Below, in pieces: positions 60,992-64,000 of a DNA stretch of 64,000 nucleotides (the stretch's first letter is position 1; each line of letters starts with the position of its first letter). Origin of the DNA: Halomonas elongata DSM 2581 (GTDB lineage Bacteria; Pseudomonadota; Gammaproteobacteria; Pseudomonadales; Halomonadaceae); assembly GCF_000196875.2 (NCBI RefSeq), contig NC_014532.2:1054001-1118000 (forward strand), read 5' to 3'. The position numbers and the translations under genes were made by a program. The notes under the pieces were generated by a model that had not been told where the DNA came from, made no database searches, and was given only the letters and a program-made list of their open reading frames with translations.

Positions 60992-61903
60992 ATGATTAGA
61001 CAACGCACGCTCAAGAACGTCATTCGCGCCACTGGCGTCGGCCTGCATTCGGGCAAGAAGGTCTACCTGACCCTGCGCCCTGCACCCGTCGACACTGGCA
61101 TTGTCTTCGTGCGCACCGACCTGGAGCCCGAAGTTCAAATTCCGGCCCGTGCCGAGAACGTCACCGACACGACCCTGTGTACGGCCCTGTCCCAGGACGG
61201 TGTCAAGGTGGCGACCGTCGAGCACCTGATGTCCGCCCTGGCCGGACTCGGCATCGACAATGCCTATGTCGATGTCAGCGCGCCCGAGGTGCCGATCATG
61301 GACGGCAGCGCCGGGCCCTTCGTGTTTCTCATCCAGTCGGCGGGCATCGCCGAGCAGGATGCGCCGAAGCAATTCATCCGCATCAAGCGCGAAGTGGTGG
61401 TGCGCGACGGCGACAAGGAAGCGATGTTCCTGCCTTATCAGGGCTTCAAGGTTTCCTTCGCCATCGACTTCGATCATCCGGTGTTCGAAGAGCAGAAGCA
61501 GACCGCCACGGTCGATTTCTCCACGACGTCTTTCGTCAAGGAAGTGTCGCGAGCCCGTACGTTCGGCTTCATGCGCGATCTCGAGCACCTTCGCTCGAAC
61601 AATCTGGCGCTTGGCGGCAGCCTCGACAACGCCATCGTGGTCGACGACTACCGCATCGTGAACGAAGGTGGGCTGCGCTACGACGACGAGTTCGTCAAGC
61701 ACAAGGTGCTGGATGCCATCGGTGATCTCTACCAGCTGGGCCACAGCCTGATCGGCGAGTTCCGCGGCGTGAAGTCCGGCCATGCGCTCAACAACCAGTT
61801 GTGTCGCGCCCTGATCGCCAATCCCCAGGCCTGGGAAATCGTCACTTTCGAGGATGAAACCCAGAAGGCTCCGATCTCCTACGCGGCGCCCGCCATGGCC
61901 TGA
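60992..61903 (+). CDS. lpxC: UDP-3-O-acyl-N-acetylglucosamine deacetylase
   Basis: LpxC catalyses the first committed step of lipid A synthesis. The 303-residue protein begins [32 protein letters not shown]; zinc-binding residues lie in [21 protein letters not shown] and in the [15 protein letters not shown] motif (HKxxD), and [11 protein letters not shown] contains the catalytic His. The C-terminus is APAMA; the enterobacterial FtsH-degradation tail cannot be judged from sequence alone. It is followed by a strong bidirectional hairpin. Confidence 0.97.
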
Positions 61904-61939
61904 TGCCACGCCAGGTGTTTCGTTGCAGTGCAGTCCTTG

Positions 61940-61967
61940 ACCGCCGCCCTTGATGGGCGGCGGTTTC
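61940..61967. terminator. Terminator hairpin between lpxC and dciA
   Basis: ACCGCCGCCC-ttgat-GGGCGGCGGT is a perfect 10-bp stem followed by TTC, between convergent lpxC and dciA. The U-run is short, so efficiency may be moderate. Confidence 0.75.
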
Positions 61968-61990
61968 GCATGGGCGCGTGGTGGGGCGGT

Positions 61991-62446
61991 TCAGGATTCG
62001 GCGTGCGAGGCGAGACGTTCCAGGGCGCGTTTCAGGCGTGGGTTATCGACGTCGGCGGCACAGCTGGACAGTTCGTCGGCAGCGCGGGAGGGGAGATGGC
62101 GCGTCTGGCGCATCGGTGTCTTGGGCGGGCGGACGGGTCTGACCTTGAGGTCGAAGCCGCTGACCGCCTCGAAGCCGGCGAGTTCGTGCAGTCGCTTGAG
62201 CAGGCGCGGCTGTTCGTAACGGAGCCTCGTCAGCCAGGTGGCACGGTCGGTGATCAGGGTCAGCCGCCCCTCCCGGAAGCCACCGACGTAAAGGTGCTCG
62301 CCGAGTTCGGCGGGAAGCTGGGCCCGCAGATGAGCCTGGGCACGCTCGATCAGGCGTGCCATTCGCATCAATGATCCCAGTTCGCCCTGGCCCTCCAGGA
62401 GCCTCGACATGGGCTGGGCTCGGAACCGCTTAACCTTTATACTCAT
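61991..62446 (-). CDS. dciA: DciA-like helicase loader (DUF721)
   Basis: DciA is the ancestral bacterial loader of the replicative helicase DnaB, used where DnaC/DnaI is absent. The 151-residue product has the DUF721 core: MSRLLEGQGELGSLMRMARLIERAQAHLRAQLPAELGEHLYVGGFREGRLTLITDRATWLTRLRYEQPRLLKRLHEL, then a basic linker. I chose the ATG at 62446 (MSIKVKRFRAQ); an ATG at 62485 would add 13 residues and is less likely. A DUF721 gene between lpxC and secA is also the pseudomonad arrangement. Confidence 0.87.
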   Translation of the reverse strand: MSIKVKRFRAQPMSRLLEGQGELGSLMRMARLIERAQAHLRAQLPAELGEHLYVGGFREGRLTLITDRATWLTRLRYEQPRLLKRLHELAGFEAVSGFDLKVRPVRPPKTPMRQTRHLPSRAADELSSCAADVDNPRLKRALERLASHAES

Positions 62447-62555
62447 CAGCTTGATTCTCGGGGGCATCCCCCTGACACGATGCATGGTCGTCGCGCCGGA
62501 CGTCGGCGGCCGTTGAACAGCCAGAGCCTAGCACGCACGGGAGTTTCTCGACAGC

Positions 62556-62921
62556 ATGGCCACCACGCTCACCGCGGACACATGCGCCTCCGGGGCGCCG
62601 ACGCGACGCCCTCGAGGCGCGCCGGCACGTTGGTGGCTGGCGGGGTTGCTGGTGGGTTGCCTGTTGCCGGCCGGACTCTCCCAGGCCGAGTGGCGCCCCA
62701 TCGAGCGCGTCGTGCAGATGTGCATCCTGGCACCGGCGCTGATTCGCGCCAGTTCACAGCTCCAGGCACGGCGCCGGTCGCGCCGCCGCTGGCCCTCCCG
62801 GGTGGCGCCATGTCGCCCGACCGGACAGGCTCGCCCGGTGATTCGTCGCGAGCCGCTGCGGGCCGTTGCTGCCCATGATGTCCTGACTCGCCGTGGCCCG
62901 CCATCCTGCATCCCGGGATGA
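62556..62921 (+). CDS. Putative secretion-monitor leader peptide upstream of secA (SecM-like)
   Basis: No clear homologue is recognised. The 121-residue product has a long basic N-region, a hydrophobic stretch at about residues 27-43 (WWLAGLLVGCLLPAGLSQA) ending in a likely signal-peptidase site, an Arg-rich middle, and the C-terminus VLTRRGPPSCIPG. The R-x-G-P near the end recalls the SecM arrest core IRAGP four residues before its stop; here five residues remain after R-R-G-P-P's last Pro. The E. coli upstream arrest residues (Phe150, Trp155) are not matched. It sits 60 bp before secA, the secM position. GC3 is high, as in a real gene. ATG has GGGAG 12 bases upstream. Confidence 0.55.
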   Translation: MATTLTADTCASGAPTRRPRGAPARWWLAGLLVGCLLPAGLSQAEWRPIERVVQMCILAPALIRASSQLQARRRSRRRWPSRVAPCRPTGQARPVIRREPLRAVAAHDVLTRRGPPSCIPG

Positions 62922-62975
62922 GTGACGAAGCGGCCGTGCCCGAGTGCCGGCCGGATGCCATATGCAGTGACAGGA
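62904..62975 (+). promoter_or_regulatory. Possible anti-Shine-Dalgarno structure controlling secA
   Basis: TCCTG at 62904-62908 (the Ser-Cys codons just after the R-R-G-P-P codons) is complementary to CAGGA at 62971-62975, the secA ribosome-binding site. CTGCAT (62906-62911) can alternatively pair with ATGCAG (62962-62967) beside it, and CGGCCG (62931-62936) with CGGCCG (62948-62953) can close an inner stem. A ribosome paused at the arrest codons would cover the upstream arm and free the site. This is inferred from complementarity only. Confidence 0.4.
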
Positions 62976-62981
62976 CCCTTC

Positions 62982-64000
62982 ATGATCAACAACCTGCTAC
63001 GCAAGGTCGTCGGTTCCAAGAACGACCGTGAAGTCAAGCGCATGAACCGCATGGTGGCGCGTGTCAATGCGCTGGAATCGGAATACGAGGGCCTCGATGA
63101 CGAGACTCTCCAGGCGCGGACCGACGTCTTCCGCGAGCGCCTGAACAAGGGCGAGACGCTGGATGCCCTGCTGCCCGAGGCCTTCGCCACGGTTCGCGAG
63201 GCCAGCAAGCGCGTCATGGGCATGCGCCATTTCGATGTGCAGGTGATCGGCGGTATCACCCTGCACAATGGACGCATCGCCGAGATGAAGACCGGCGAGG
63301 GCAAGACCCTGGTGGCGACCCTGGCGGTCTATCTCAATGCGCTGCCCGCCAAGGGCGTGCACGTGGTGACGGTGAACGATTACCTGGCGTGCCGTGACGC
63401 CGACTGGATGCGTCCCCTGTACGAGAGCCTCGGGCTGACGGTGGGAACCATCTATGCCGGCCAGAGCCCGGAAGAGAAGCGTCGCGCCTATGGCTGCGAC
63501 ATCACCTACGGGACCAACAACGAGTTCGGTTTCGACTATCTGCGCGACAATATGGCCTTCTCCCTCGAGGACAAGGTCCAGCGCGACCTGCACTTCGCCA
63601 TCGTCGACGAGGTGGACTCGATCCTGATCGACGAGGCGCGCACGCCCCTGATCATCTCCGGGGCCGTGGACGAGAACACCGAGCTCTATCGCGTCGTCGA
63701 TCGTCTGGCCACTGGCCTGACGCCGTGCAGCGATGAGGAAGACCCCGAGAGCGGCGATTTCACGCTGGACGAGAAGCAGAAGCAGGTGGAGCTCACCGAA
63801 GGGGGCCATAACAGGGTCGAGGAACTGATGCGTGCCGAGGGCCTGCTCGGTGCCGAGGACTCGCTCTATGCGGCCCAGAACCTCAACCTGCTCCAGCACA
63901 TGCACTCGGCGCTGCGTGCCCGTCACCTGTATCACCGCGATGTCGACTACATCGTCAACGACGGCCAGGTGGTGATCGTCGACGAACACACCGGGCGCAG
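62982..64000 (+). CDS. secA: Preprotein translocase ATPase SecA, 3' end cut by window edge
   Basis: SecA is the motor that drives preproteins through SecYEG. The 339 codons present begin [25 protein letters not shown] and contain Walker [14 protein letters not shown] near residue 105, [38 protein letters not shown], Walker [22 protein letters not shown], and part of the preprotein-crosslinking domain to [23 protein letters not shown] lies six bases before the ATG. The upstream leader gene suggests secretion-responsive translation. Confidence 0.97.

Follow-up and report, generated by a model that had tools for sequence, protein, structure and literature searches.

Gene organization upstream of secA

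The analyzed window is a stretch of 64,000 nucleotides from Halomonas elongata DSM 2581. Close to its downstream end, an ORF of 121 codons precedes secA, which runs off the window (Table 1). The full-length ORF protein is MATTLTADTCASGAPTRRPRGAPARWWLAGLLVGCLLPAGLSQAEWRPIERVVQMCILAPALIRASSQLQARRRSRRRWPSRVAPCRPTGQARPVIRREPLRAVAAHDVLTRRGPPSCIPG; its C-terminus, VLTRRGPPSCIPG, contains the tetrapeptide R113-G114-P115-P116. The gap between the ORF stop codon and the secA ATG at 62982 is 60 nt. The N-terminal segment, basic plus hydrophobic and conserved in 89 aligned sequences, is a candidate localization signal. The divergent neighbor, a dciA/DUF721 gene, lies outside the proposed switch, and the gene at 60992-61903 is presumably lpxC, as judged from gene order. 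A scan of 61880-63020 yielded no sigma-70-like promoter site; co-transcription of the ORF and secA is assumed.

The ORF is a real gene. An earlier, sequence-only reading of the region had described a 121-codon ORF with a signal-like segment 60 bp before secA, and every detail of this description is borne out by the coordinates and the translation.

Table 1. Features of the secA upstream region and their positions in the window.
Feature	Position	Strand	Evidence and remarks
ORF of presumed secretion monitor (uA_RQH_Pseudomonadales-type arrest peptide)	62556..62921	+	ATG at 62556, TGA ending at 62921; 121 aa plus stop; homologs
secA, 5' part (runs off window)	62982..64000	+	Pfam SecA_DEAD 3.3e-110
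dciA/DUF721 gene, divergent neighbor	61991..62485	-	Pfam DciA 3.4e-13
Signal-peptide-like hydrophobic segment RWWLAGLLVGCLLPAGL, residues 25-41	62628..62678	+	Near invariant in 89 sequences; dN/dS 0.030
Conserved post-signal segment, residues 47-79	62694..62792	+	dN/dS 0.146
Drifting Arg/Pro-rich linker, residues 80-104	62793..62867	+	dN/dS 0.708
Putative arrest core AAHDVLTRRGPP, residues 105-116	62868..62903	+	Conservation; dN/dS 0.024; at the predicted stall, P115 (62898-62900) occupies the P site and P116 the A site
5' arm of predicted hairpin, codons H107-G114	62874..62897	+	Folds; synonymous shuffles; V109 codon choice
Inner spacer hairpin, enclosed by both arms	62931..62953	+	Folds
3' arm of predicted hairpin, with secA Shine-Dalgarno AGGAC (62972-62976) and start codon (62982-62984)	62957..62984	+	Folds

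Selection and conservation of the C-terminal core

The comparison is based on 89 distinct loci, which remained from 124 rows after identical rows were dropped; none of them lacks the motif or the secA start. Alignment A1 covers 44 of the 45 loci fetched, and the remaining one (L017), missed by the pattern, was read separately. The dN/dS values come from 807 pairs whose proteins are 60-95% identical and are descriptive, since the pairs share ancestry. The signal and the core A-A-H-D-V-L-T-R-R-G-P-P are under strong purifying selection, whereas the linker drifts. The sequence-only reading had called for exactly this check, a signal and a core that are kept while the middle changes, and the values of 0.030 and 0.024 against 0.708 agree with it.

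Within the core, A105, D108, R113, G114, P115, and P116 are invariant in the 89 distinct sequences, followed by V109 (0.99), L110 (0.91), A106 (0.88), R112 (0.85), H107 (0.84), and T111 (0.83). The same reading had proposed a secretion monitor with R-x-G-P-P as its core. Conservation upholds an export-linked protein with a C-terminal R-G-P-P core, but not R-R-G-P-P as a unit: position 112 is Arg in only 85% of the 89 sequences and Q, P, or C in the others.

All 80 named loci (the best 80 of 170) carry RGPP, a count that is partly circular, as one of the fetch patterns was HDVL[TS]RRGP. The 29 loci fetched by profile from 18 genera are less circular; they include 25 intact ORFs with RGPP near the end, three with RAPP, and one split ORF. 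Five of the 29 (L190, L191-L193, and L194) were missed by the reading pattern and then read individually. The split ORF comes from a poor assembly (G243; at L194 the frame is broken and the assembly is 86% complete). One further genome missed by the profile (G295, genus g45) has DVLSRRGPP before secA.

In genus g27 (loci L199, L200, and L202), RAPP replaces RGPP and the HDVLTR context is lost. This is a natural swap of two known arrest cores inside one homologous family. The context before RGPP also differs in some other genera, with SLNPRGPP, CLCRRGPP, and CFLRRGPP as examples. As judged from these sequences, the widest common denominator of the family is the signal, R-(G/A)-P-P, and secA.

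A separate observation concerns the post-signal segment. Its consensus, ERxVQxCILAPALIRASSRLQARRR, is conserved although this part of the chain would be just outside the tunnel when the ribosome is stalled, and the export machinery may recognize it as a second element.

Distribution in Halomonadaceae and in the order

Matches to the ORF protein (E 0.01 or better) were found in 257 of 275 genomes of the family, including all 37 genomes of the genus, versus none of 21 genomes of other families. These 257 are protein matches; the loci individually read are the aligned and named subsets. The 18 family genomes without a match belong to genera g34 (eight), g36 (six), g40 (one), g43 (one), and g44 (two); both g44 genomes are incomplete, and the secA start is missing there too. 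Named relatives among the best 80 of 170 loci come from Halomonas, Billgrantia, Vreelandella, Onishia, Aidingimonas, and Litchfieldella. We take the Halomonadaceae to belong to Pseudomonadales in GTDB; the NCBI order of these named relatives is Oceanospirillales. In all 89 distinct loci with the start located, secA lies 25-120 nt downstream, and in 24 profile-fetched loci the spacer between the ORF and secA ranges from -4 to 188 nt.

When 390 genomes of the order were searched with a profile, 26 matches were obtained, 18 of them in the same family (E 9e-22 or better) and eight outside it (E 7e-4 to 8e-3). The region before secA contains no such uORF in six of the eight outside genomes (the two left out being G438 and G583, the latter without a secA match). 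A wider spread of the ORF family beyond Halomonadaceae was rejected, the outside matches being weak and the six regions read having no such uORF before secA. Among 40 secA-upstream regions, a uORF with RGPP or RAPP was found in five of 13 from the same family (f1) versus none of 27 from the rest of the order. The scan considered frames of at least 35 aa with a stop between 350 nt before and 20 nt after the secA start; the 13 regions had been chosen as misses or weak matches, and one of the 27 (L170) comprises only 154 nt.

Another gene often occupies the place of the uORF. Directly 5' of secA, 18 of the 27 regions outside the family and seven of the 13 inside it have an M23-peptidase-like frame; loci of this type include L138-L141, L145, L146, L152, and L154-L159, and they also occur in genera g34, g36, and g40 of the family. 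One of these frames was confirmed by Pfam (1.9e-32), and the others were recognized by eye. The gain of the uORF seems to accompany the loss or relocation of the M23-peptidase-like gene before secA. Separately, a second, divergent SecA-like match besides the main secA was observed in two genomes (G181 C1:868345-868872 and G039 C24:124834-125229, with 33% and 42% identity, respectively).

Predicted mRNA hairpin over the secA start

In the minimum-energy fold of 62840-63011, the stretch 62874-62897 pairs with 62957-62984, covering the secA Shine-Dalgarno (SD) sequence and the ATG. The helix 62880-62885/62971-62976 has a probability of 0.98-1.0 in three shorter folding windows and of 0.39 in the longest one (62700-63030). 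Pairing of secA positions -13 to +3 with the upstream coding sequence has a mean of 0.70 in the window versus 0.10 in 30 synonymous shuffles, none of which is as high. Across the 89 loci the corresponding values are 0.32 and 0.135, and in 28 of the 89 at most one of 30 shuffles is as high, with 5.7 such loci expected.

In the model, a stalled ribosome opens the hairpin at the start codon. With a ribosome modelled over 62883-62914, pairing of the start codon falls from 1.00 to 0.14 and that of the SD sequence from 0.99 to 0.64; with a smaller footprint the two values become 0.30 and 0.72. Over three stall footprints the start codon is 0.14-0.30 paired and the SD sequence still 0.64-0.72 paired. 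A control ribosome modelled 60 nt upstream leaves both unchanged.

The predicted pairing was also compared by type of SD sequence. Values of at least 0.3 are reached in 39 of 63 GGAC loci, four of 17 GGAT loci, and three of nine others. The hairpin does not appear to be common to the whole family, because 13 of the 63 GGAC loci have pairing below 0.1 and none of the six named Vreelandella loci has an SD hairpin in the folds (pairing 0.00-0.13). In 25 of the 89 loci, deletion of the 5' part leaves the pairing of the SD region unlowered.

Codon choice at V109 follows a similar division. V109 is encoded by GTC in 52 of the 63 GGAC loci versus 27.5 expected from secA codon usage, in six of 17 GGAT loci (6.1 expected), and in one of nine loci with other SD sequences (3.4 expected); this split could stem partly from shared ancestry. 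At other Val positions of the GGAC genes, GTC occurs in 11 of 63 (V33), eight of 42 (V53), and four of 22 (V104), but in 18 of 33 at V52. For L110 there is no special preference for CTG (45 of 60, with 34-63 of 61-63 at other Leu positions of the GGAC genes). Covariation between V109-L110 and the SD sequence is slight: a mean of 4.375 of six pairs versus 4.283, with 30 of 2000 permutations as high, in a test that pooled 88 loci and ignored kinship. The spacer matches no known RNA family, the best Rfam match being far under the cut-off (E 0.7, 15.3 bits versus 65.3).

Based on these folds, we tentatively propose that in the Halomonas branch the arrest-core codons H107-G114 double as an anti-SD and anti-start arm, so that one 24-nt stretch would be selected twice, once for the stalling peptide and once for the RNA strand held away by the stalled ribosome. 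The arm would lie behind the P site, as a mirror of E. coli secM. There, the partner of the SD region is codons 166-169, which lie at and beyond the A site, with G165 in the P site (as seen in a single fold); in the window the secA SD sequence is predicted to pair with codons 109-110. The wiring of the RNA via arrest-core codons is a prediction of moderate confidence, and we did not find it described for uA_RQH_Pseudomonadales. If true, the device of E. coli secM would here have a wiring that evolved separately.

An arrest might also act on secA otherwise than by SD unmasking, by shielding the mRNA from decay or from Rho termination or through translational coupling. Such a route would accommodate the six named Vreelandella loci, which keep RGPP but lack the SD hairpin in the folds, and the 13 GGAC loci that also lack it, as well as the variable spacer length in the 24 profile-fetched loci. 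We nevertheless consider it rather unlikely, as predicted pairing is at least 0.3 for the window and for 39 of 63 GGAC loci, 28 of 89 loci (5.7 expected) have no more than one of 30 synonymous shuffles as high, and the GTC preference at V109 accompanies the GGAC sequence.

A probable secretion monitor that arrests at RGPP

The ORF very probably encodes an export-monitoring arrest peptide upstream of secA. Its reading as a secretion monitor whose arrest core is RGPP is well supported, because the signal and the core are under purifying selection, the linker drifts, and matches extend over the family. Ribosome stalling by the window ORF is predicted by analogy, and so is the stall position, which follows the toeprints of Fujiwara et al. 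(2024; PMC10987492). In the proposed mechanism, translation of the ORF would expose the signal peptide, and the ribosome would stop at ...HDVLTRR-G-P-P, where P115 occupies the P site and the A site contains the Pro-tRNA for P116. When the Sec machinery is short, the halt would persist, and the parked ribosome would keep apart the hairpin whose 5' arm is the coding sequence of the arrest core. The open hairpin would expose the secA SD sequence and start codon, yielding more SecA. When export is working, the pull on the nascent chain would lift the halt, the ribosome would terminate, and the hairpin would re-form. Export-driven relief and induction of secA in Halomonas elongata are what we infer from this scheme.

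Alternatively, the ORF could encode a small exported protein with its own job outside the cytoplasm that is merely sited before secA, and the conserved residues 47-79 (dN/dS 0.146) could be its functional domain. This is very unlikely: besides the signal, the strongest constraint falls on the core, 12 residues with a stall-prone tetrapeptide at their end, the linker evolves almost neutrally, matches to Pfam and NCBIfam families all stay under the cut-off, and secA follows in all 89 distinct loci examined.

The export-monitoring arrest peptide resembles SecM of E. coli (structure in PMC10951299) in its signal-peptide-like segment, the near-C-terminal arrest core, secA downstream, and a hairpin over the secA SD sequence, which is predicted here. 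The distance from signal to arrest site is also similar, with a median of 71 in short SecM variants versus approximately 74 residues in the window ORF. The two differ in the core, FxxxxWIxxxxGIRAGP in SecM versus RGPP here, and share no detectable sequence homology. The SecM motif is absent from the ORF, whose core is AAHDVLTRRGPP and has no Phe or Trp at comparable places; the remark in the sequence-only reading that Phe150 and Trp155 of E. coli SecM are not conserved thus holds. In searches with the ORF protein, no Pfam family, SecM and SecM_small included, reached an E value of 1, no NCBIfam match was above a cut-off, and the PDB sequence search gave two matches (E 0.7-0.9). As a positive control, E. 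coli SecM matched Pfam SecM PF06558 (4.2e-58) and NCBIfam SecM NF002799 (8.1e-69); its matches to the small-type SecM models stayed under the cut-offs. SecM homology was rejected on this basis and on an hhalign probability of 0.1%, a weak test against a single SecM sequence. A diverged true SecM homolog instead of an independent origin is very unlikely: it would share the gene-order logic (lpxC region, uORF, secA) and the stall position relative to Arg, whereas the profile results just given and the 27 secA-upstream regions elsewhere in the order, all without such a uORF, speak against it. The ORF probably works like SecM, and by sequence it is not a SecM.

Probable membership in the RQH family

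A screen of 30,175 genomes has defined the RQH family of RGPP/RAPP uORFs upstream of sec genes, among them uA_RQH_Pseudomonadales, whose members precede secA in some of the Pseudomonadales (Fujiwara et al., 2024; PMC10987492). The member tested has the motif R109GPP and in vitro stalls ribosomes of both E. coli and B. subtilis (fAP > 0.9), and toeprints place the third motif residue of RQH members in the P site (PMC10987492). Later work reports arrest by RAPP and RGPP in every context tested, generally most robust with RGPP (PMC12992588, 2025).

RQH uORFs, short and of unknown function, are recognized by a place directly upstream of a sec gene, an N-terminal localization signal, a signal-to-arrest distance of >30 residues, and a RAPP-like C-terminal motif common to >2 uORFs of an order. 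The window ORF is a short uORF directly upstream of secA on the same strand, approximately 74 residues separate L41 from P115, and the motif is common to relatives (80 of 80 named loci; 25 plus three of the 29 profile-fetched ones). Like uA_RQH_Pseudomonadales, it is a secA uORF with a C-terminal R-G-P-P and, as a candidate, an N-terminal localization signal, presumably in the same GTDB order. The tested member has R109GPP versus R113GPP in the window protein, and in H. cupida (L072) the motif Arg is residue 109, the same number as in the tested member. Because the uORF was found only in its own family within the sampled order, the window ORF almost surely belongs to uA_RQH_Pseudomonadales. 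ApdA and ApdP, likened here by description, also have a RAPP/RGPP core and stall at its third residue, but they belong to other lineages and precede secDF, versus secA here.

The ORF therefore belongs to a published kind and opens no new arrest-peptide class, contrary to what the sequence-only reading had suggested, since RGPP/RAPP uORFs of sec genes are already described as the RQH family (PMC10987492). In the part covered, that paper gives neither an mRNA switch nor an extended core for uA_RQH_Pseudomonadales; here the core is extended and a switch is predicted. Its main text, as distinct from the supplementary species list, contains no word beginning Halomona, and a word search of PMC7897499 (Sakiyama et al., 2021), in the part covered, returned no Halomona, RGPP, or Pseudomonad. 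Literature searches found no paper joining Halomonas with a SecM arrest peptide, a secretion monitor, or secA translation arrest, and the uA_RQH name in PMC10987492 alone; for the string RRGPP, none of the matches listed was on arrest peptides by title.

Implications

The locus clearly exemplifies, across the Halomonadaceae, a secretion monitor for secA that is built on RGPP. It adds an extended conserved context, AAHDVLTR, before the core and a natural exchange of RGPP and RAPP in one genus. The predicted RNA switch is testable, can be compared with that of E. coli secM, and is a possible clue to how such switches are constructed. Halomonas species serve as production hosts, and for this reason tuning of SecA in Halomonas would be of practical value.
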